Assembly (NCBI GenBank): GCA_016841965.1 | Contig: JAEANN010000046.1 | Span: 62,001-126,000 of the forward strand | Length of the DNA: 64,000 nucleotides | Direction of reading: 5' to 3' | Origin: Candidatus Roseilinea mizusawaensis | GTDB taxonomy: Bacteria; Chloroflexota; Anaerolineae; J036; Brachytrichaceae | In this document: piece after piece, positions 10,896-36,898 of the stretch | How the letters are laid out: the number at the start of each line of letters is the position of its first letter | Numbering within the stretch: position 1 is the stretch's first letter | Made by a program: the position numbers and the translations under genes | The notes under the pieces: model-generated | The model's database searches: none | The model's input: only the letters and a program-made list of their open reading frames with translations | Told to the model about the DNA's origin: nothing

Positions 10896-10925
10896 TGCCA
10901 ACGCGAAATATTGTTCAGGTTCTTA

Positions 10926-11073
10926 AGGTTGAAGGTTAAAGGTTGAGAGTTCAGAGTTCAGAGTACAGAGTACAGAGTTGGGTGCTGCGCTCTGTATTCT
11001 GTATTCTGTACTCTGTACTCTGTATTCTGTACTCTGTCGTCTGACCACTGACTACTGACAACTGACTACTGCT
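10926..11073. repeat. Long array of about 20 heptad units in two opposed halves (heptad locus 2)
   Basis: From 10926 eight 7-bp units run in one sense (AGGTTGA... GAGTTCA, GAGTACA, GAGTTGG), then after an 8-bp spacer (10982-10989) twelve or so units run in the opposed sense (CTCTGTA, TTCTGTA, CTCTGTA ... TACTGAC). The GAGTACA and CTCTGTA runs are complementary and can form a long hairpin. The array covers the whole intergenic region and includes the TAG stop codon (11066-11068) of the methyltransferase gene. Confidence 0.9.
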
Positions 11074-23644: not shown

Positions 23645-26600
23645 TCATCGCATGGTCTTGCTAACCAAGAATTGCAGAATTTGACCGTTAGCGGCGTCGG
23701 TGACAAGCAAGACATCGCCATTGACCGTCAGGCCGGTGGGCAGGCTGCCCTGGGGTGTGGTGAGGTTGGCTTCGATCTGCTCGCCGGCCAGCGTATAGGC
23801 CAGTACTTCGCCTGTGCGCGGGCTGCTCACGTACAGCGTGTTGCCGCTGATGGCCAGGAAAGGCTTGTGATCGACTGCCTGAAGGTCTGTGGCCTCCATC
23901 GTCAGCCACGAATTGATCGGCCACGCCCGCAAAAACTTGAACGCGCTGTCGAAGACCTGGATGCGCCTGTTCCAGGTATCGGCCACGTAGATATTGCCGG
24001 CGGCGTCGATGGCCAGCCCGACCGGCTCGTTGAACTCGCCGTTTCCTGCGCCCTCGCGGCCAAATTGCGCCAGGAAATTGCCCTCGCTGTCAAAGACCTG
24101 CACACGCTTGTTGCCGGTGTCGGTCACCAGCAGCCGGTTCTTCCGATCGATCACAATGGCGCGCGGGCCGAAGAAAGTGGTGTCGCGTCCAGAACCGTTT
24201 GCGGTGCTGACGCCCGGCCGGCCCCACGCAAACAGGAAGTTGCCGGCGCGGTCAAATTTCTGGATGCGGTGATTGAATGTGTCGGCCACGTAGATGTTCC
24301 CGTTGCTGTCGATGGCGACGCCCCACGCGTCGTTAAAGCGCCCCGGCCCTCCACCCAGACCGCCCCATGCCGTCTGAACGATGTTGTCGGCGTTGAGAAC
24401 GAACAGCCGGTTGGCCTTGCGGTCGATCACCAAACGATCGCCGTTAGCGGCGACCGCGATGCCGGTTGGGTTTTGCAGGCGCGGGAGGGGGGCGCTCAGC
24501 TCTGCGCCGCCGGCGCCTCCTGCCAGCGCGCCGGCCCGATAGTCCCACACCTGCGCCGCCAAGTCGTTGCGCAGATACAGGCTAAACCGATGCGCCGGCG
24601 ACCATGTGTCGGCGGTTAGCGTCGTCTTGTTGAAGACCTGCGAGTAGCGCGTGAAATCGCGATTGAAGATGATGTCCCACAGCGCGGCGCGCGCCTGTGG
24701 GTTGAAGAGCGAATACGAGATGCGCTCCCATGTCAGGTCGAAGTAGTCTTGCATTGGCCACCACACCAGCGTGTAGTGGAAACGGCTGTAGTTTTCCAGC
24801 AACTGTGGCTCGATCTCATTGCGTTTGGGGTGCTGGTCGCTGATCAACATGGCATCCAGGTCCATGTAGTCCGCCGGCAAATCGTTGCCGATGAAGCGCG
24901 CGTTTGGGAACAAGCGCATGTACCAGCTCATCGGCCAACTGGTTTCACTGTCATAGCCAACCCTGATCCCATCGCCGCCCTTCAAGCGCTTCGACAGGTC
25001 TTCGAGCTGCTGAATAGCCAACTTTGTGCCCGGCGCGCCGTGCGCGTAAAACAGAAACTCGCGCGTGTAGTCATAGTTGATGTAGGTCACGGTGTAGGCG
25101 GTGCGCACCGTCAGGGCGACACCCAGGCAGAGCGCCGCCACCACGACCATGCGCCAGGCCCAGCGCCCGCACAAAAACCGCAGCGCCGCCAGCGCAGTGA
25201 TCAGCATCACGCCGCTCAGCCCGAACACGCCAAGCCATGCCAGCAGTCTGGCCGTGTCGCCCTCAGGGATGTCAAGACTGCCGATCAGCGATAGCAGCCT
25301 GATGACGAGAAGCACCGCCAGGCCGGCCAACGTCACCCCGCCCAGTTTGCTTGCCCCGTTCATCTGCCGCCAGTTCGGCCCGATTGCGCACATGATGCGC
25401 TCGACGAACCAGCCGGTGAGAAACGCCATGGGCAGCGCAATGTGCACGGTCAACCAGGGCATCTTTTCGCCGGCTGCGCTGAAAATCAGCAGCGCCGAAA
25501 TGCTCCACCAGCCGGCGAACACAGGCCATAGGTCGATTTGGGATTTTGGATTTTGGATTGTGGATTGTGTCGGCGGTTCGGGGTTGGCAATTGGTGATTG
25601 CGGCGCGTCGATGGTGTTCGATGGCCCAGCGGACTGAGGCGCGCGCAACAGGCCGGCCAATCCGCGCGCAGCCATCGTGATGAATGCGCCGGCTGCGCCG
25701 GCCACCACCAGGTACTCGTACAGCGGCACAAGCAACAGGTAGTAATACCAGGGCTGGCTGCCGCGCTGCACCGGATGTTGCGCCATCCAATACCCAAGCT
25801 GCCCGACAAAACCGGTGCCGATGCCCCCCACGTTGGTGAAGACGGTGGTGAACAGGGTCACCGTGATGACGCCAAACACGGCGATGATCAATAGCCACAG
25901 CCGCCAGTTCCACGTGACGCCGATGGCGATGCTGATGGCAGCCATGCCCACGCTGAGCGCCAGCATAGTCGTGATCACCTGTGTGTTCGTGCTCAGATTG
26001 CTCATCGAGCCAAGCAGCTCGACTGATACCAGCTCCTCGCCGGTGACGCGCGCCCACAGCGGGTTGAGCACGAGGAGCATAGCCGGCGCTGCCATGAACA
26101 TGGTCGTCGTCACCATCACTACGGCAGTGTTGAACCAGGGCGATTGGCTGCCTGCCATCGCCAGCCATTGCCCGAACCACAGCCGCAACAAGAAGGCGAC
26201 CAGCGCCGCCAGCGCCACGCCGGCCAGCGCGATCACCACGGCAAATACCATCAATTGCAGATTCAAAGACAACACCAGCGGTTCGATCTGCTGCACCACG
26301 CTGCCGATGCTCAGCGCCTGGGTCAGCAGGCGCGCCAGCGCCTCCATCGCCACGCAGACGATGAGCATGGCGACGGCCAGAAAGCCGGCATAGCCAACAG
26401 CCGTCCACACATCTTGCATCCGCCTGCGCATGACATAGAACTCGCGCAGCGCGACTACGCCTGCAAATGCCGTAATCCAGGCCACAGTGAGGAAGGACGT
26501 GGATTTGTCTGTGGCGTGAAAGGCCAGCGTCGCCGTCAGCGCAATGAGCCAGCCGGCGCGACGGGTCTCGATGTAGCGCCATATGAATAGAACGGTTAAC

Positions 26601-27225: not shown

Positions 27226-29103
27226 TCACCGGCCGCTGTAGCGTCTGGCCACATCCTGGCGCAGCCACAGCACCCAGCGTGTCTGGGTAGGGATAGCGCT
27301 TCCATCCAGGTTGCGCAGGATCAGCCAGCGCGCCAACGGGTAACAATTGAACTGGCCGGATCGGTCGTCGCATCCCGCCGAGCGGATGGAAGCGGTGGAT
27401 GCGATGCGAAACTCGCTGCCGATGTAGGTGTAGTCGGTTTGAATGGTTGCACCCATTGGCGTCAACAATGTCTCCGCTGCGCCTGGCTGCGATGTGATGG
27501 TTGCTCGCTGCCAGTCGCGCACTGCCCACTTCAGACTGGCCGGCGCCGATTCAGGCAACTCAATCGAGATTGCCAGCGGCTCGCCGGACGCCCGCGCGCT
27601 GACATCGCCCAGCGCGTTGCGCAGGTCATGCACGCCGGGCAAGGTCGCCCGGACGTTGTACGGCTCGGCGGGGTTATCCGGACGGGTCTGAGTCAGTTGG
27701 ACGCCGGCGCTGAGCGTGTAGAGCAGCAGGCAGATGCCGGCCGCGATGCCCACACCGGCCAGCGCCGATTGTGTATTCAGCGTCATGCCTGCCACAATCG
27801 CAATGCCGCCCACCATCACCAGCGCAATCAGGCCGGTCAACAACCAGGTGACTGCGCCCTGCCCGGCGTAGAACAGCGCGCCAATGAACCCATACACGAG
27901 CATGATGGCAGAAATGCCGGCCACAGCAGCGATGGATGCCCATTGCCGGCGGTCAGCCAGTTCGGTCAGGATGCGTTCAACGGCGATAGTTGCCAGGGCT
28001 GCGCAGCCAATCACGACCGGCGCAAGCCCATCTGCTGTGCGTGACTGTGTGAGCAACCACAGGCCAAAGCCTGCCCCGGCCCACGCCGGCCAGGGCGTCG
28101 CGCCGCGCATCGCGCCGCGCATCGCGCCGCGCAGCACACGCGCATCACGCGATCTCGGAGCGTTCGATGAACCATGCTGCGCGCTGCGTCGCAGAACAAG
28201 CACTGCGCCGCCTGTGATGGCCCCAATCCAGATCAACGGTTCGTAGAGCACAAAGCCGGCTGCGCCGCGCAAGGCCGGCAATATCCACAGGCCGGCGCCT
28301 GGCTCTGGCAACGGCGCGCCGGTTAGTTCGGCGAACCACATGGCATAGCCGTTGAACATATCGCCCAGCCCCGACAGTCGCAGGCCGAAGCCTGTCGCGC
28401 CGATTGCGCACGCGCCTGCGGCAATCAGCGCGCCGGTTGCGTTGATCCGCAGCCGGCTGAATGCGTTGCCGGCGGCCAGCGCGGCCGCAACGGTCAATGC
28501 CGGCGTCACTGCATCCGCGCCGCACGCCAGCAACAGGCCGGCCAGCAGCCAGCCCATCTCGGCGCGCGCGTTTGTGCTCCATACACACCACATGCCAAAT
28601 GCCAGCGTCCACGCGAGCAATGCGCCGTCTGATTGGCGCGCGATGAACCACAGGGTGGGTGAGAGCGCCAGCAGTCCGCCAAATGCCAGCCCACGGGCCG
28701 GCCCGATCTCGCGGCGCAGCAGGGCCGGCAGCAGGCACAGCGCAACGCCGGCCAGCGCCGATAGCCAGCGCGCTGTGGCATCTGTTGCGCCGAAGATGGA
28801 CATCCAGATGGCCTGTGTTGCGCTAAAGAGCGGATTAGCGGGCGAGGTAGATGCGAACGCTGTTGCCATTGGGCTGGCATGGCCGGCCAGCGCCAGAGAT
28901 TGCAGCGCCAGTGCGGCCTCGGCATCGTTGAGCGGGGCGCTGCCCAGCGCCCATAAGCGCGTGAGGCCGGCAACTGCGCCAATGCCCAGCCACAACAGGG
29001 TCTCGCGGGTGACTCGCACCCGCGATGCCGTCTCGTCCGACGGCCCTGCGTGCGCGAGCGGTGTCTTGGTTTCATGAGGGTCAAGTGGCGTGCTGACAAT
29101 CAT
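27226..29103 (-). CDS. PMT/GT39-like polytopic membrane protein
   Basis: A 625-residue membrane protein with about 12 helices. The N-terminal soluble 30 residues are followed by G-L-T-R-L-W-A-L-G-S-A-P-L-N-D-A-E-A-A, the first external loop typical of ArnT/PMT-like lipid-linked sugar transferases, here with the acidic pair D-A-E. The C-terminal 150 residues form a soluble domain after the last helix. ATG 29103 overlaps the stop of the upstream YYY gene (ATGA), so translation is coupled. The exact donor and acceptor are unknown. A 12-bp repeat (R-G-A-M three times) sits in a loop at about residue 330. Confidence 0.72.
   Translation of the reverse strand: MIVSTPLDPHETKTPLAHAGPSDETASRVRVTRETLLWLGIGAVAGLTRLWALGSAPLNDAEAALALQSLALAGHASPMATAFASTSPANPLFSATQAIWMSIFGATDATARWLSALAGVALCLLPALLRREIGPARGLAFGGLLALSPTLWFIARQSDGALLAWTLAFGMWCVWSTNARAEMGWLLAGLLLACGADAVTPALTVAAALAAGNAFSRLRINATGALIAAGACAIGATGFGLRLSGLGDMFNGYAMWFAELTGAPLPEPGAGLWILPALRGAAGFVLYEPLIWIGAITGGAVLVLRRSAQHGSSNAPRSRDARVLRGAMRGAMRGATPWPAWAGAGFGLWLLTQSRTADGLAPVVIGCAALATIAVERILTELADRRQWASIAAVAGISAIMLVYGFIGALFYAGQGAVTWLLTGLIALVMVGGIAIVAGMTLNTQSALAGVGIAAGICLLLYTLSAGVQLTQTRPDNPAEPYNVRATLPGVHDLRNALGDVSARASGEPLAISIELPESAPASLKWAVRDWQRATITSQPGAAETLLTPMGATIQTDYTYIGSEFRIASTASIRSAGCDDRSGQFNCYPLARWLILRNLDGSAIPTQTRWVLWLRQDVARRYSGR
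28100..28135 (-). repeat. Three 12-bp in-frame repeats in the PMT-like gene
   Basis: Two copies of GCGCCGCGCATC and one of GCGCCGCGCAGC encode successive R-G-A-M-type tetrapeptides in a basic loop between helices. Confidence 0.8.
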
Positions 29104-31565
29104 GGTTGAGTGCGGGTCGGGCCGGGCGCGATCTGATAGATGATTGTGCTGCCCGATTGGAAGACGGGCTGCCCCAGCCGTTCGAATTTAGCCAGCCCCT
29201 CGGCTGAATATCGGTTGCGTTCGGGCGGCCCAACGATAACATATCGCACGTTGAATTCGTCGAGCACGGCGCGGGAGGCGCGCGCATCTGTGCTGTTGAA
29301 CAGTGTTTCGATCAACGGTTCGCGGCGCGCCGGCTCGGTGTAGTTGCCGCGCCACTGGTGCTGGTGCCCGCCCCAGCCGAGTAGGGTGGGCAGGCCGGTA
29401 AACGCAGAGATGCGGCCATGATAGGAATAGGCCGCGTAGCGGTCGGCCGGCGCTTCGGCGATGACAGGCGCGCCGGTCACGTTGGTGTTCAGCCATGCAA
29501 TGGCTGCGGCATCGTCGGGGCGGGTGGTTTTGAGATATGCTGCGCCGTCGAGGGTGGGCCGGCGCGAGAAACCATCGGTGCGGCTTTGCATGGTGAAGAG
29601 GGGATACAACAGCCCGCCGGCGATCAACAGGCCAGACAGAATTCCGGCCAGCTTTGGCCACATCCCGCGCGCGCCGAACAGACTGGTCAATGCAAAGCCG
29701 CCGGCAACAGCCCACACCGTCCACGCTTGATAGTAGAACTTGAACACTGTGTTCATGCGCGTGCCGAACATGTCGCGCACGAACACAAATTCCACCGCTG
29801 CTGTCAGCAAGGCTCCGCCCAGTAAGAGCAGCAGCACGAAGAGATCGGGCCGGCCGGTGTTTGTTGTGCCCTCAGAGGCAGCCGGCGATGCGCTCAGTGC
29901 GGTCAAGATCAGCGCCACACACAGCGCCGCGCAGGCCAGCAGTGCGAGCGGGACCCAGGGGTCGCTCAGACGAAGCGCCAGACGTTGCAGGGCAATCTCG
30001 CGCGTGACGCCAAACACGCTGCCGCCTTCTTGCATGACCTGGGTGAATATCTCGCGCAATTGCGGCGAGATCAACCCGATGACGGTAACGCCGGCCAGCG
30101 CGCCGAGCAGGGCGAGCAGGGTCAGGCCGGCGGCGCGGCCCAGCAGCGCCACAATGGGTGTCTGTGTCGCGCGACTGATGCGATGCGTCGTCAGCGCGAT
30201 GAAGGCCAGGCCGATCACAAGGAATGGCGCAAACATCAAGACAAACTGCGGCCAGCGCGTGCCGTTGAATAAATTGATGCCGATGCCGGCCGCCTGTGAA
30301 GCAAATGTGGCGTAGAACGGCAGATACGCTCCATAACCTAGCGCCAGCATCGCTGCGCTGAACAGCAACGCCGGCCCCAATGTTTCACGCCGTAACAGCC
30401 GGCCCAGCAGTAGCCCGCCGATTGCCAGCGCGCCGTACACCGGAAAATCCCATGTGTTCATGAAGGCCAGTCCACCCACAACGATAGCCGACAATGCCAG
30501 AGGGGGTAGGCCGGCGAGCGAGCCGAAGCGCGGGGGGAGCGATGGACGATGGTACAGGCTGAGGGCGAGTGCAATGGCGACCAGTGCGAAAGGCAGCCCC
30601 ATCACGTGGGGGTGATTGTCGCCCAGCAGGAAGCTGAAGGCCGGCGATTCGGTGATCACTTCCTGGTCGCGGCCATCGGGGGTGTAGTCGTGCACGACGC
30701 GCGACCAGTCCCACCACCAGTAGTAGCGCGTCGGGGCCAGTCCGTTGCACTCGACCTGTTGTGCGGCGATCTGGCGCACATCCAGCCATGTCCAGAACGC
30801 ATCCGGCGTCACGCCTGCGCATCGCGCCGCTTCCATGAATCCGCCCATGTTGCCCATCACGGCCAGCATGAGCGCGGTGAGCAGGCCGGCCACAGTTGCC
30901 TTCGGAGTGCTGAGTGGTGAGTGCTGAGTATTGGCCAGGTTCCACCCCAGGCTGTATGCGCCGGCGAGCGTGAGGGCAAAGAAGGTAGCGTTGCCCAGGT
31001 TGAAAGCGACGGTGGACGCCAGGCCGCTGAGGCGTGTGAGCATGGCCAGGATGACATAGCCGAAGTAGTAGTAGCTGATGCTGAAGCCCGACAGCCAGGC
31101 GTCGTTGGGTGGAAAGGCCGGGCTGCGCAAAATGGCGTTCAGCATCATGATCTCCATGAACTTTTCGCCGCCGGCTTCCAGGATGTCGGGGTTGTATGCG
31201 CGGTAGGCGGCCCACAGAAACAGGCCGGCTGCAAACAGCGCCTCGGTCACGATGACGGACGAGCGGGCCGGCCACAGCACAAGCCGCGCGCGCGAGGCGT
31301 CGGTTGCGCGCCGTTGATCGAGCTGCCAGAGCGCGATGCCGGCGCCAAACAGGACGGCCAGCGCCATCAGCGCCGCGCCGGTGTTGTTGGCCGACAGCCG
31401 CGCTGTGACGATCCACCAGTAGGCAAACCCGCCCAGCAGCAGACCGAGCGCCTTGCTCGCGCCATAGCCGCGATCGGGCAGTCCGCGCAGCCAGCGCGAG
31501 GCAATCAGCCAGCCGCCCAGGCTGAATGCTTGTAGCCACACGTACCACACCAGAATTTCGAGCAT
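29100..31565 (-). CDS. DUF2298 'Chlor_Arch_YYY' membrane protein
   Basis: An 821-residue protein with about 15 helices. The name-giving motif is present (S-Y-Y-Y-F-G-Y near residue 160), along with G-G-E-K-F-M-E, the block P-D-G-R-D-Q-E-V-I-T-E-S-P-A-F and D-N-H-P-H-V. These mark DUF2298, a family found mainly in Chloroflexota and archaea and related to GT39-type transferases; its reaction is not established. A tail of about 150 residues lies outside the membrane. It couples to the next gene by an ATGA overlap and follows the PMT-YYY fusion gene with a heptad-filled gap. A heptad array (30905-30932) lies in a loop at about residue 215. Confidence 0.85.
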   Translation of the reverse strand: MLEILVWYVWLQAFSLGGWLIASRWLRGLPDRGYGASKALGLLLGGFAYWWIVTARLSANNTGAALMALAVLFGAGIALWQLDQRRATDASRARLVLWPARSSVIVTEALFAAGLFLWAAYRAYNPDILEAGGEKFMEIMMLNAILRSPAFPPNDAWLSGFSISYYYFGYVILAMLTRLSGLASTVAFNLGNATFFALTLAGAYSLGWNLANTQHSPLSTPKATVAGLLTALMLAVMGNMGGFMEAARCAGVTPDAFWTWLDVRQIAAQQVECNGLAPTRYYWWWDWSRVVHDYTPDGRDQEVITESPAFSFLLGDNHPHVMGLPFALVAIALALSLYHRPSLPPRFGSLAGLPPLALSAIVVGGLAFMNTWDFPVYGALAIGGLLLGRLLRRETLGPALLFSAAMLALGYGAYLPFYATFASQAAGIGINLFNGTRWPQFVLMFAPFLVIGLAFIALTTHRISRATQTPIVALLGRAAGLTLLALLGALAGVTVIGLISPQLREIFTQVMQEGGSVFGVTREIALQRLALRLSDPWVPLALLACAALCVALILTALSASPAASEGTTNTGRPDLFVLLLLLGGALLTAAVEFVFVRDMFGTRMNTVFKFYYQAWTVWAVAGGFALTSLFGARGMWPKLAGILSGLLIAGGLLYPLFTMQSRTDGFSRRPTLDGAAYLKTTRPDDAAAIAWLNTNVTGAPVIAEAPADRYAAYSYHGRISAFTGLPTLLGWGGHQHQWRGNYTEPARREPLIETLFNSTDARASRAVLDEFNVRYVIVGPPERNRYSAEGLAKFERLGQPVFQSGSTIIYQIAPGPTRTQP
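30905..30932. repeat. Four heptad units inside the YYY gene (heptad locus 4)
   Basis: GAGTGCT, GAGTGGT, GAGTGCT, GAGTATT. On the coding strand they give N-T-Q-H-S-P-L-S-T, a hydrophilic loop between two helices. Confidence 0.85.
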
Positions 31566-31570
31566 GGCGG

Positions 31571-31598
31571 TAGACAGTAGTCAGTAGTCAGTAGTCAG
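31571..31598. repeat. Four heptad units between the two YYY genes (heptad locus 5)
   Basis: TAGACAG followed by three TAGTCAG units occupy the 77-bp gap directly upstream of the 821-residue YYY gene. The unit resembles the TACTGAC units of the array at 11053 on the opposite strand. Confidence 0.9.
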
Positions 31599-31642: not shown

Positions 31643-34600
31643 TTAACGCTTAACGTGATAGATTGTGGTGCCCGGATTTTGATAAGCGATGGCGAGATAG
31701 CCGAGCCGCACCATTTCGTCAAACTTGCTGAAGCCGGCCTCGTTGTAGTACACGCGCTCTAGATCGCCGACGATGATGTAAGCTGCGTTGTAGCGCCGGA
31801 TGAGCGTTAGAGCGCGCCCAATGTCGGGTGTGTTGTAGAACTCGCTCAGGTCGTCGTCGCGGTCGTACACGATGCGATCGCTCAGCGCGGCGCGCTGCTG
31901 GCGCTGATGCCATTGCCAGCCCACCACCGCCGTCAGGCCGGTGTAGATCGAGAAGCGATTACCCCAGCGATACAAGTTCCCGCCGGTGGTGCCTTCGATA
32001 ATGACCGGCGAGCCGGCCACATGATCCTGCATCCAGCGTATGGCGTCGTAGTCATAGCGCAGCGGGAACGTGCGCTCTTTGCCGCCGATGCCCTCGAAAC
32101 GCTCGGCATAGCGCATGTAAGCCATGCCGTCCAGCCCTTGCGGTGCGGCGCGCGTGTAACGGTCGTTGATCTTGGCTGGGATGGCAAAGGCCGGATACAA
32201 CGCGGCGACGAACAACGACACGGTCATGCCGGCCACAAACGCGCCTTTTAAGAAAGTTAAAGACAATCGTCTGCGCGCCGGCTGAGCCGTTGTTGCGTCC
32301 ATCGGCTTGTCGCTCATGCGTTCGACCTGCCACACACAGGCGACCGGCGCGCTAATGCTCAGCAGAAGCCATGCCTGAATGTAGAACTTGAACACGGTGT
32401 TCATGCGGCCGATGTCGCCGCGCAATGTGAACAGTTCCACGAACACGGTCAGCGCGAATGCCCCGGCGGTCATCAGCCACAGCGCGCGTGTCGGGCCACT
32501 GGCGCCCGGCATCACGGCTGCCAGCGCCGCCAATGTCATCATCGGCACAGCGATAATGGCGATGGGCGCATGTTGGCCGGCCAGAATGAGCGCCAGCGCG
32601 CCTGTCGCAACGCTGACTATGAGGCCCACCACCAGCCATTGCCGGCGCGCGCCCGGCGACCGGCTGCGCAGCGTGCGCAGTAGCGTGCGCTGCAGCGTGC
32701 GCTGTAGCGTGCGCCAGACGCCCCATGCAAAGTACACGATGAGGGGAATCAGAAATATGCCGTAGATGGTGCGATAGACACTGAGCGGCGTTGTCTCGGC
32801 CTGCCAGCGATCGATCTGGTTATAGGCCGAGCCGTAGTTCTCCAGATAGGGCACGTAGAACGCGCGCGTGAGCACGACGAAGACGATCATGGCCGGCAGC
32901 GCCATGCGCACGAACGCGCCAACGCAAGCGCGTCCCTCGCATCTGGCTTCGTGTGCTGCGCCAATCGCAATGGCCGCCAGAGTCAGCAGCAGATAAACGG
33001 GATAGTCCCATGAGTTCGTCGGCCACAATGCGCCGACCACCAGCGCGGCCATGACTATGCTGAACCAGCGCCGCGCGCCGCCGGCCAGCGCGAGCGCCAG
33101 CGCCATTGCCAGATATGCGAGCGGCATGGCGATCATGTGCGCGTGCAGGTCGGCATACAGGAACGTGAACTGCGGAAACTCGGCAATCGGCACGGCCTCG
33201 TGCAGACGGGTCGGGTTCCAGTACGGCCAGTTGGGGTAGATGGGCAGCGGCTGGCCCTGCACCCATTTGAGGATGCCGTTGAGCGTGGCGACCAGCGCAG
33301 GTGTTCCATCCTCGATGCCACCGAGTTTCTGCCAGGCCGGCAAGATCACATCTGGCTGACCCCAGTTGCCGATGCCCACGACGAACACAGCAGCCAGCGT
33401 GCCGGCAACGATGGCGCGATTGGTTCGCACGGATGCGCGCGCCGTTCCGGGTTGTCCGGCGCGCCAGGCATAGAACGACGCGCCCAGGCCGAACGCGCCG
33501 CACGCGGTCAGGCCGAACAATGTCGGCACAGCCAGATTGTAGGCAATGGCCGGGTCGATGCCCAGCGCCTTGATCGGCGCGCCGATCAGCACGAAGCCAA
33601 AGTAGTAATAGTTGATGTAGCCGCCGGCGAACCATGGGTCGTATGGCGGGAAGTAGCTGGACTTCAGCACGGCGTTGAGGTAAGCGAAGTCCATCGGTTT
33701 TTCGCCGCCCATGTACGGATGCCACAGATCAGGGTTGCCGGCGCGCACCAGCAGCCACAGCCCAAAGCCGATCAGGAACACCAGCTCTGTGGCGAGGATG
33801 ACGCCGGCGCGCGCTTTGAGCAGCGCGCCCAGCTCGTGCCGATAGCGCCACCAGACGAACAGGCCGGCGATTCCCAGCGCAGCCACAACCGTCCAGATTT
33901 GCGCGGCTGTGAACATGGCGATCCTGGCGCTGCCCAGCCACCACGTCACGAATGCCACCAGCAGCAGGCCGAGCACTTTGCTGAAGGCGTAGCCGCCGTC
34001 CAGCAATTTTGGATGTTGGATGTTGGATTTTGGATTTGGTGTAGCGGATTGCGAGTTCTGTGTTCTGGATTCTGTGTTCTGGATTCTGGATTCTCGGTCC
34101 CGCACGGCGGCGAAGAGCAGCGGGAAGGCCGCCAGACCCAGCGCCTCGATCAAGGCCAACCAGGCCAGTACTGCCAGCGCCTGGGACTGGTTGAGGAGTG
34201 ACTCGCGCGGGAACAGCTCGCGCCATGTGCCGCCGGCCTGTTGCGCTGCGCGTGTCGTGTCGTCGAACAACATGCCGCGCGGCGTGTTCACTGCTTGTAG
34301 CGGCGTCTGCCGGATCACGCGCGTCAGATCGTATTTGCCCAGCACCTGTTCCGCCAGCGCGCGCGAATAAGCCGGCGTCTTGCGGAAGATCAACACGCGC
34401 GGATGGTCGTACACCGAGAAGGCTTCCTCGGCGGTTGGGTAGGGCATCCAGATGCCTGCCGGTGTGCCTTGCGTCTTTGGACTGCGGCGCAACGGCTGCG
34501 GCATCTCCTGATCGTTGAAGTGCAGCGGGCCAATGCGCGGGAACGAATGGAAGTCGGCGGCCAACTCGAACCCCAGTTCGCCGTTGAACAGCGCGCGATA

Positions 34601-36898
34601 GTACTCGGTTGCCATCGGGAAGCGCCACGGCAGGCGTGGGATCGAGCCGTACAGCCGGTTGCTCGACAACACCAGATAGTCTGCTTCGTCGAGCCAGTTC
34701 AACACCTGCGGCAACTTCTCCGGCGCATCTTCGGCGTAATTCTGAATCTGGCCGTCGCTGCTGGATGACAGTCCGACGTAGTACATGCCGTAGGCGTCTT
34801 TGCCCGGCAGGTTGCGCGGCACGGCGTCGTCCCAGTGCTCGTTGGCGACAACGCTGGTGCTGGCGAGCAGATCGTCGCCGGCGATGTGCTCGAAAGCAAT
34901 GAGGTACATGCGTCCACGTGGAATATCGGGGAAACGCAGGGTGGGATTGTCTGGGCTGACGACGGTGCGCGCCATGGCGATTTCCTGGCCGGTGGCCGGA
35001 TCGATCAGCGTAGCCAGCAAGTCGCCGACGCCTTGGAGTTTGTTGAGCGTCAATCTTAAAACGCCGCTGTCGCCGGGCGGGTTGCTTTCTGCGCTGCTGA
35101 CTGCGCCTTCTGTTGTCTCGGCGTGCAGCAACACGGTTTGCGACTGGCCGGGGGTCAGGCTAAGTGTGCGCAAGGGAAGCTGATACCGGTCTGTCACGGC
35201 GCCGTTGTCATCCAGCCACTCGGCGGTCAGTGCAGTGGGGATGTTTTCATAGGCCCAGTAAGTGGCGGCCAGGCGTGATACGGGTTGGCGGTAAATCGTG
35301 GTGAAGGCCAGCGCCCATGCCAACGCGCCGGCCAGCACGACCCCGATCAGGATGGCCGGGTTGAGCAGGCCGGCCATCCTGCGCCGGGCGCCCTTGCCCA
35401 CGCGCCGGAGTTGTCCCCCGCGCCATAATGCGATCAGCCACGCTGCGGCCAGCAGGCACAGCACGGGGTAGATCGGCAGCAGGTAGCGCATCGACTTGGT
35501 CCATTGCGTGCTCTGGTACACAAAGTACACGCCGCCCCACAGCACCGGGATCAAGTAAGCCCACCAGCGCCGGCCACGCCATAGCTGGCGCAGGCCGGCC
35601 AGCAGGCCGGCACAGGCTGCCAGCCCCAGCGGAATGCCCATCCCCCAGAACACCAGATTGATGAGCGGGAACACAATCGGCGTGCGATTGGCCCACTGGT
35701 GGCCGAAGGGCACATCGATTGTGCCGTTGACAAAGCCTTGCGCCAGCGCCAGTTTCTGAATCCAGCGTCCAGACGGCGCCACGAGCACGCGCACGGGTTC
35801 GGGCAGATTGGCGGCCAGTGCGCACACGCGGTTGAGCAGGTCGCCCGATTGTCCGGCGCATTGGGCAAGCGTCAACTCAAACTCGGACTGGCTGCTGCCG
35901 ACGAAGGCGTAGGGCTGGGCGACACGGAACGCGGCAAAGGCGCCCACGCCGGCCAGAACCAGCGCGGCGAACGTGCGCCAGATGGGGGCCGGCCCGCGCG
36001 ATCGGTCGCGCGCCAGAGCGACGATGCCGCTCAGCACGATCAGCGGAATCAACGGCCACACGCTGACTTTGCTGGCCAGCGCGCAGCCGGCCATGAGGCC
36101 GGCCAGCAGACCATCGGCAAGCACGCCGAAACGAGCGTCGATGGATGACCGACGATCGCCGACCGAAGATTGCCGCGTAACCATGCGCGCGCAGAAGTAC
36201 AGCGTAAGCATGGTGAACAACACGGCCATGCTGTCCACAGTGTAGAAGTGCGCCGACTGAATTTGCAGCACCGCAGCCCCGCTGAGCGCCGTCGCCAGCA
36301 ACCCAACCCGCCAGCCAAACAGCCGTCGGCCTGTCAGGAAGAGTGTGAGCAGGGTCAGCAGGTCGGCCAGCGCAGAGATAGCCCGCCCGATCAACGTGGT
36401 GCGGGTGAAGCCGGTGAATGCGCCGCGCTGGCACTCGACCGCTTCCTCACCGACGAGCAGGTGGGCGATCAGGCGTGGGGCGGCGGCAACGCCGGCGGGC
36501 GCAGCCGGCTGGGTCTGCGTGTCGCGCGAAATGCAGCCGCTGTCCAGCCATTCTGCGGCAAAGCGCCCCACGAATAGAGGCAGTGTACCGTACACATAGT
36601 CGCGCCCCCAACTGGTGTTAAACGGGTTAAGGGGCGACGCGCCAGAGTCGAAATATTCGCTCAGGTTCTGCGGTGTGCGGACGGTGCTGGCCAGCACGCC
36701 TACATAGCGCTCGTCGGGATGAAGAAGCTGGTCTTCGTCCCAGTTGAGGCCGGTGAAACGCAACCAGCCGGCTACAATGAGGACGACGATCAACAAGGCC
36801 GGGCGTAGTATCGGCCACACCCGCGTGCGTCTTGTTTTGGTGGTATGGGTGCGGCTTCCGCCGGCCTTGGTGAAAGTAGGCGAAGCTACGTCAGGCAT
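31643..36898 (-). CDS. Giant fusion: PMT-like glycosyltransferase plus DUF2298/YYY domain
   Basis: A 1751-residue protein, first gene of the envelope cluster. Residues about 25-530 are a PMT/GT39-like module (G-L-N-W-D-E-D-Q-L-L-H-P-D-E-R-Y in the first loop), about 545-905 a soluble domain, then a helix, a heptad-encoded linker (about 934-964) and a full YYY domain (about 965-1745) with G-G-E-K-P-M-D, I-N-Y-Y-Y-F-G-F and M-N-T-V-F-K-F-Y. The second module is clearly homologous to the 821-residue protein encoded downstream. It probably acts in sugar transfer on the outer face of the membrane; this is inferred. A 12-bp repeat expands R-T-L-Q/L in a basic loop near residue 1400. Start ATG 36898. 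Confidence 0.85.
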   Translation of the reverse strand: MPDVASPTFTKAGGSRTHTTKTRRTRVWPILRPALLIVVLIVAGWLRFTGLNWDEDQLLHPDERYVGVLASTVRTPQNLSEYFDSGASPLNPFNTSWGRDYVYGTLPLFVGRFAAEWLDSGCISRDTQTQPAAPAGVAAAPRLIAHLLVGEEAVECQRGAFTGFTRTTLIGRAISALADLLTLLTLFLTGRRLFGWRVGLLATALSGAAVLQIQSAHFYTVDSMAVLFTMLTLYFCARMVTRQSSVGDRRSSIDARFGVLADGLLAGLMAGCALASKVSVWPLIPLIVLSGIVALARDRSRGPAPIWRTFAALVLAGVGAFAAFRVAQPYAFVGSSQSEFELTLAQCAGQSGDLLNRVCALAANLPEPVRVLVAPSGRWIQKLALAQGFVNGTIDVPFGHQWANRTPIVFPLINLVFWGMGIPLGLAACAGLLAGLRQLWRGRRWWAYLIPVLWGGVYFVYQSTQWTKSMRYLLPIYPVLCLLAAAWLIALWRGGQLRRVGKGARRRMAGLLNPAILIGVVLAGALAWALAFTTIYRQPVSRLAATYWAYENIPTALTAEWLDDNGAVTDRYQLPLRTLSLTPGQSQTVLLHAETTEGAVSSAESNPPGDSGVLRLTLNKLQGVGDLLATLIDPATGQEIAMARTVVSPDNPTLRFPDIPRGRMYLIAFEHIAGDDLLASTSVVANEHWDDAVPRNLPGKDAYGMYYVGLSSSSDGQIQNYAEDAPEKLPQVLNWLDEADYLVLSSNRLYGSIPRLPWRFPMATEYYRALFNGELGFELAADFHSFPRIGPLHFNDQEMPQPLRRSPKTQGTPAGIWMPYPTAEEAFSVYDHPRVLIFRKTPAYSRALAEQVLGKYDLTRVIRQTPLQAVNTPRGMLFDDTTRAAQQAGGTWRELFPRESLLNQSQALAVLAWLALIEALGLAAFPLLFAAVRDRESRIQNTESRTQNSQSATPNPKSNIQHPKLLDGGYAFSKVLGLLLVAFVTWWLGSARIAMFTAAQIWTVVAALGIAGLFVWWRYRHELGALLKARAGVILATELVFLIGFGLWLLVRAGNPDLWHPYMGGEKPMDFAYLNAVLKSSYFPPYDPWFAGGYINYYYFGFVLIGAPIKALGIDPAIAYNLAVPTLFGLTACGAFGLGASFYAWRAGQPGTARASVRTNRAIVAGTLAAVFVVGIGNWGQPDVILPAWQKLGGIEDGTPALVATLNGILKWVQGQPLPIYPNWPYWNPTRLHEAVPIAEFPQFTFLYADLHAHMIAMPLAYLAMALALALAGGARRWFSIVMAALVVGALWPTNSWDYPVYLLLTLAAIAIGAAHEARCEGRACVGAFVRMALPAMIVFVVLTRAFYVPYLENYGSAYNQIDRWQAETTPLSVYRTIYGIFLIPLIVYFAWGVWRTLQRTLQRTLLRTLRSRSPGARRQWLVVGLIVSVATGALALILAGQHAPIAIIAVPMMTLAALAAVMPGASGPTRALWLMTAGAFALTVFVELFTLRGDIGRMNTVFKFYIQAWLLLSISAPVACVWQVERMSDKPMDATTAQPARRRLSLTFLKGAFVAGMTVSLFVAALYPAFAIPAKINDRYTRAAPQGLDGMAYMRYAERFEGIGGKERTFPLRYDYDAIRWMQDHVAGSPVIIEGTTGGNLYRWGNRFSIYTGLTAVVGWQWHQRQQRAALSDRIVYDRDDDLSEFYNTPDIGRALTLIRRYNAAYIIVGDLERVYYNEAGFSKFDEMVRLGYLAIAYQNPGTTIYHVKR
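32670..32714 (-). repeat. 12-bp in-frame repeats in the PMT-YYY gene
   Basis: Three full units (AGCGTGCGCAGT, AGCGTGCGCTGC, AGCGTGCGCTGT) and a partial fourth encode R-T-L-x tetrapeptides in a basic, presumably cytoplasmic loop. Confidence 0.85.
34007..34097. repeat. Thirteen heptad units at the PMT/YYY junction (heptad locus 6)
   Basis: Thirteen contiguous 7-bp units (TTTTGGA, TGTTGGA, TGTTGGA, TTTTGGA ... TTCTGTG, TTCTGGA, TTCTGGA, TTCTCGG). Because three units make 21 bases, the coding strand gives a heptapeptide period (E-S-R-I-Q-N-T, E-S-R-T-Q-N-S and so on). The paralogous YYY gene at 29100-31565 lacks any insert at the matching place. Confidence 0.92.
36140..36174. repeat. Five heptad units in the N-terminal part of the PMT-YYY gene (heptad locus 7)
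   Basis: GATGGAT, GACCGAC, GATCGCC, GACCGAA, GATTGCC in the coding sequence. They give S-S-V-G-D-R-R-S-S-I-D-A-R in a loop between membrane helices. Confidence 0.7.

Follow-up and report, generated by a model that had tools for sequence, protein, structure and literature searches.

The window analyzed here, a stretch of 64,000 nucleotides from Candidatus Roseilinea mizusawaensis (genome G000), carries on its minus strand two YYY/DUF2298 genes, the long P0001 and its paralog P0002, and several tandem arrays of 7-bp units (heptads) lie within them, between them and close by:

25535–25569, minus strand: in-frame GATTTTG array (coding strand IQNPKSQ) in a membrane-protein loop (Agl23-like, TIGR03663)
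29100–31565, minus strand: paralog P0002, 821 aa, YYY/DUF2298, with the homologous loop free of an insert
30905–30929, minus strand: short in-frame heptad array in P0002 (GAGTGCT on the plus strand), about residue 212, peptide NTQHSPLSTPK
31570–31598, plus strand: GTAGTCA array in the P0001–P0002 spacer
31643–36898, minus strand: host gene P0001, 1751 aa, with a PMT_2-like (glycosyltransferase-type) N-terminal half and a YYY/DUF2298 half
34007–34097, minus (coding) strand: 13 degenerate heptads encoding about 30 residues, RESRIQNTESRTQNSQSATPNPKSNIQHPK
34009–34039, plus strand: strong sub-block 1, TTGGATG/TTTTGGA units (coding strand CAAAATC), TRF
34055–34094, plus strand: strong sub-block 2, TTCTGTG/TTCTGGA units, TRF; this block has 21 bp fewer in the related genome G001

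Read on the coding strand from 34097 to 34007, the units are CCGAGAA TCCAGAA TCCAGAA CACAGAA TCCAGAA CACAGAA CTCGCAA TCCGCTA CACCAAA TCCAAAA TCCAACA TCCAACA TCCAAAA, i.e., a CAGAATC/CAGAACA block and then a CAAAATC/CAACATC block, with three degenerate units forming a weak center between these two strong blocks. The first-pass annotation had described 13 contiguous heptads set between VRDR and LLDGGYAFSK, and both parts of this description hold: all units fall in one register; at lag 7 the sequence agrees with itself in 60 of 84 positions, where the window averages 21.5 (sd 4.9) and none of 100,000 shuffled versions of the 91 bp scores as high; and the residues flanking the insert are FAAVRDR and LLDGGYAFSK. 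The top lag-7 score of the window belongs to a different heptad array, around 10917–11071. When the whole window was scanned at the same threshold, lag 7 alone yielded arrays among lags 4–11 (zero at each of the others), and lag 12, a codon multiple, yielded four. A 12-bp in-frame repeat (RTLQ) elsewhere in P0001 (32670–32714) is an ordinary repeat of this codon-multiple kind. Because three heptads equal 21 bases, a perfect heptad gives one cyclic heptapeptide in every frame; the frame-independent heptapeptide period that had been claimed is thus correct for a perfect unit, and the encoded peptide displays it (ESRIQNT-ESRTQNS-QSATPNP-KSNIQHP).

Within P0001, residues 171–301 match PMT_2, residues 980–1513 match DUF2298 (PF10060), and residues 962–1750 match the YYY model TIGR03662, starting at model position 27. 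In P0002, the match to the same model begins at model position 3, so the P0001 insert lies inside the first YYY stretch and not merely at the domain border. Hydropathy places the insert between predicted membrane helices at residues 914–932 and 966–984, and AlphaFold2 modeling of the region from 36 sequences (mean pLDDT 86) gives approximately 55–77 for the insert and 95–98 for the flanking helices. The 34007–34097 array lengthens the loop that joins membrane helices 1 and 2 of the YYY/DUF2298 domain.

The P0001 protein was matched in 39 of 40 relatives. In class-level relatives and in the paralog, the helix anchors at this loop stand 3–8 residues apart (e.g., RHLADRGH, RGLPDRGY), and in family f1 the loop spans 8–48 residues that are unalignable and share no residues, while both flanking helices are conserved. 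As distant orthologs show no conserved residues here, the proposal that the array is an insertion in a hydrophilic loop stands, supported by these sequence comparisons. G001, a genome of the same genus whose protein is 85% identical, shares the two-block array, in frame and 21 bp shorter in the CAGAATC block. A third genome of the genus, G002 (77–79% identity), retains a decayed remnant at the loop (NPKSAIPSP); in G023, the loop is occupied by a long array built of other heptads (CAGAGGC, then GACGCAG, then its inverse CTTGCGT), and G021 has a degenerate array whose heptad sequence differs from that of G000. In approximately 20 further P0001 orthologs, no array above threshold was found at the loop.

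These comparisons bear on two other explanations of the insert. Repeats are error-prone and the source assembly is a draft of 59 contigs, yet an assembly or sequencing artifact is extremely improbable, given that the independent genome G001 carries the array with both the 21-bp difference and independent substitutions, that the ORF is open, and that similar heptad arrays are present in many independent assemblies. Selection for a functional linker, in which the heptapeptide spacer would determine how far apart the halves of the fusion protein lie or how they move relative to each other, could draw on the greater length of the loop across most of family f1, compared to outside the family, whether or not heptads are recognizable; however, with lengths of 8–48, no shared residues, sequence that is replaced between genera, and similar arrays in unrelated loops of unrelated proteins, we consider such a linker very unlikely.

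Loops elsewhere in the same protein family are also array sites. Among P0001 orthologs, arrays occupy five loops, at about residues 242–258 (G001), 493–518 (G020, G021, G023), 934–967 (G000, G001, G021, G023), 1270–1281 (G028), and 1441–1466 (L064), the first three of which fall exactly between predicted helices, and all complete array-bearing orthologs are in frame. Further array-bearing genes include a large antiporter-type subunit and a MurF–alanine racemase fusion. In the latter, the same surface loop carries CAAAATC heptads in G000 (L156) and CAATCGT heptads in G001 (L157), the proteins being 84% identical around the loop, and in G002 (L158) a relic of the CAATCGT type survives (WQSSIANGQS); the unit type has thus turned over at a fixed site. 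In the other ten spanning orthologs, this loop measures 11–28 residues with no array. A restriction of arrays to membrane proteins had been considered and was abandoned because the MurF–alanine racemase fusion carries them. The stop-free orientation of coding arrays was excluded as evidence, since it is already implied by the open frame.

The paralog P0002 had been presented as insert-free. This is correct at the loop homologous to the 34007–34097 insert, where it reads RGLPDRGYGASK, and incorrect for the protein as a whole, which has its own heptad array at 30905–30929. Among P0002 orthologs, arrays lie near residues 83–127, 211–275, 340, and 396–429 (three or four loops). At the residue-212 site, the G001 ortholog has an array of 101 bp that is 73 bp longer in total, and its frame is broken across this long array into ORFs of 342 and 639 aa (L128, contig C75, about 33752–33852). 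The spacer between P0001 and P0002 also differs between the two genomes, with CAATACG/CAACACG heptads in G001 where G000 has GTAGTCA, and in G001 this spacer heptad recurs, inverted, in the nearby P0002 loop.

The broken G001 gene speaks for a contingency locus, in which gain or loss of a 7-nt unit (7 = 1 mod 3) would shift the frame and switch a membrane protein on and off, the array being kept for that purpose; heptamer phase variation is known for the Haemophilus influenzae hmw genes. The break may be a real pseudogene (i.e., a dying gene), an off state, or an assembly error. Against such switching, the P0001 orthologs found to bear arrays are all in frame, the G000–G001 difference is exactly 21 bp, most arrays are intergenic, and arrays also occur in the MurF–alanine racemase fusion, which would be costly to switch off; we regard a contingency locus as distinctly improbable.

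Beyond these genes, the 34007–34097 array is one member of a heptad family dispersed across the genome, a point absent from the first-pass annotation. In 471 kb of G000, there are 27 period-7 arrays (25 without G-runs), compared to 2, 2, 5, 2, 5, 1, and 4 arrays at periods 4, 5, 6, 8, 10, 11, and 13, and a third-order Markov simulation used as control gave 0; in 201 kb of G001, 18 period-7 arrays stand against 0–5 at other periods. BLASTN of the 98-bp array region against its own genome found 47 places, and a 17-nt CAAAATC probe (2 mismatches) found 184 places vs 1 for the reversed control. The probe GGTGCGGAGGTGCG had no match in G000. Array bases are underrepresented in called genes, by the reckoning of our own simple codon-model gene finder: 14% of them are coding in G000, where 73% of the sampled sequence is called coding, and 25% in G001, where 84% is called coding. 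The long G runs with which G000 contig C19 starts (L091:1–100) are probably an artifact of assembly or sequencing.

Array density is uneven within family f1, with several genera showing none in 25–40 kb. Matches to the CTGACTA probe are plentiful in G000, G001, G003, G015, and G019 and absent from most others; an exact TTTTGGA probe is present in only 7 of 199 class genomes, and this unit is therefore not ancestral to the class. Many units follow a CAR/YTG pattern (109 of 163 arrays vs 66 expected), which we had considered as a rule for all arrays and now treat as a bias.

Some arrays are paired as inverted copies, as in the window's highest-scoring region:

10925–10978, plus strand: left arm of an inverted heptad pair (AAGGTTG, AGAGTTC, AGAGTAC)
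10991–11071, plus strand: right arm of the pair (TCTGTAT, CTGTACT, then CTGACTA)

By the adjacent-pair inversion test, close inverted pairs are rare in G000, although several TTTTGGA arrays there have their inverse nearby, and frequent in the sister genus g2, where inverted copies make up 20 of the 41 adjacent pairs of G015 and all 4 of those in G003 (random pairs, about 10–14%). In g2 (L093–L112, e.g., L096:4689–4741 and L098:4907–5052), nested inverted heptad pairs (hairpins) fill short intergenic gaps, and they often overlap a stop codon or end a few bases before a start codon. In the cases listed, the CTGACTA pairs of g2 have CAGTAGT on the left and CTGACTA on the right; a rule that the CAG arm is always left was rejected, as the arrangement is reversed in the TTTTGGA pairs of G000. 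Between G003 and G019 (91–97% identical over aligned pieces), arrays differ by 7 or 14 bp (L060, L061; three sites): at one site each arm has lost one unit, and at another, part of one arm has been swapped for its inverse. Judged from these sequences, the paired arm changes point to copying within the hairpin.

A common order of heptads tends to recur in mosaic arrays at unlinked loci. On the YTG strand, it runs TTTTGGA, TTGCGTA/G, TTCTGTG or TTCTGAC, CTGACTA, and it is kept in 15 of 17 informative mosaic clusters of G000 (1.25 Mb) and in 7 of 7 of G001 (hand count), though the rule was suggested by about six of the counted loci, such that the test is only partly independent and fresh loci stand at roughly 13 to 2. 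The 34007–34097 array and the pair at 10925–11071 both obey it, with further loci at L181, L182, L183, L184, and L188. The shared order may reflect dispersed copies of one mosaic, or it may reflect directional growth.

In the first case, the mosaics would be copies of one ordered series inserted at many sites as a mobile or templated element. The order itself favors this, as do the alignment of unlinked arrays in register with 34007–34097 at 70–83% and the start of TTTTGGA arrays after CG above expectation (14–18 of 30). However, the order rule was drawn in part from the loci on which it was tested, most arrays have a single heptad type, in-register alignment is trivial for any two heptad arrays, and no associated gene, target duplication, or conserved flank beyond the CG preference was found; an element of this kind is, on balance, unlikely. 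Alternatively, arrays would be written by an active directional process advancing in 7-nt steps (driven either by a polymerase activity specific to it or by an ordered heptad series carried on RNA or DNA as template) that lays down the same order at unlinked intergenic and loop sites and overwrites heptad types at fixed sites. This bolder possibility we likewise hold to be improbable.

Instead, the insert is probably a simple-sequence-repeat array of heptanucleotides that changes in 7-nt steps and is filtered by selection. Under this simple-sequence-repeat reading, heptad arrays would grow, shrink, and change unit type in steps of 7 nt, and replication slippage together with template switching between heptads would most likely be the generating step. 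The combination is in keeping with 7-nt steps, with degenerate units that drift over the length of an array, and with the replacement of one unit type by another. The copy-number steps seen between relatives, with each species represented by a single genome (21 bp at 34007–34097; 7 and 14 bp in the G003–G019 comparison), are of the expected size, with the +73 bp of the G001 P0002 array not fitting. Within coding sequence, selection would pass only arrays with a stop-free sense strand, a net length that is a multiple of three, and a position in a flexible surface loop. At 34007–34097, the outcome would be a spacer of about 30 disordered residues rich in Q, N, S, P, and K, presumably neutral, although it could have been recruited for some role. 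Slippage alone leaves three things unaccounted for, namely the restriction to period 7, the inverted neighbors in g2, and the common heptad order at unlinked loci.

Heptamer repeats have been described in cyanobacteria, Xanthomonas, Beggiatoaceae, and Bacteroidetes, including coding copies restricted to the stop-free orientation (PMC4679880; PMC4692102), and the 34007–34097 array is best explained as an ordinary, if vivid, example of this known kind, new in its host group and unit sequences. As summarized in the sources that cite them, the long SSRs or STRRs of cyanobacteria, Xanthomonas, and Nostoc (Mrazek 2007 and others, cited in PMC4679880; PMC4692102) share with the present arrays degenerate and dispersed tandem 7-mers, a mostly intergenic location, and over-representation of period 7 but not of neighboring lengths. 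The present arrays differ in having other units (GGGNATC, GGGGAYT, and CCCCARY heptads occur in 0 of 163), a Chloroflexota family as host, and more than one heptad type per array. The TAACTGA direct repeats of marine Beggiatoaceae (MacGregor 2015, PMC4679880) are likewise mostly intergenic, show 7-nt indels between close strains, and have coding copies in the stop-free orientation only, mostly outside functional regions. There, however, a single heptad type is involved, compared to many here, and arrays here sit mid-protein, in inter-helix and surface loops; the TAACTGA unit was found in 0 of 163 arrays. Bacterial in-frame coding repeats with 3n units offer a further parallel, i.e., length variation in a tolerant region of a protein, while with a unit of 7 the frame is kept solely by three-unit steps.

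Bacterial heptamer repeats have long been on record, with their length of seven and their mode of spread left without explanation; that the length arises via polymerase contact is Mrazek's idea, as reported in PMC4679880. The family studied here supplies closely related, array-rich genomes, units exchanged at fixed coding sites, arms that change together, and an apparent heptad order, and so makes the origin of heptads testable. It also illustrates that a non-triplet repeat can repeatedly lengthen protein loops, those of a cell-wall enzyme among them, and on occasion disrupt a gene.

A further related system, with inverted arms, is the P6b stem-loop of the Nostoc tRNA-Leu(UAA) intron, whose heptads fall into Class I (TDNGATT) and Class II (NNTGAGT), with class shifts at a fixed site (PMC4476775). 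Shared features are the 7-nt units, inverted arms forming a stem, and the shift of class at a fixed site; in Nostoc, however, the repeat is a structural element of an intron RNA, whereas here it resides in intergenic DNA and protein loops. Both Nostoc consensus classes are more frequent among the 163 arrays than among shuffled units (TDNGATT 14 vs 2.6 expected; NNTGAGT 11 vs 4.3), with the caveat that arrays from the same genome are non-independent. CAAAATC arrays occur in putatively viral contigs as well, with exact GGATTTTGGATTTTGGATTTTGG in thirteen stretches (L113–L125).
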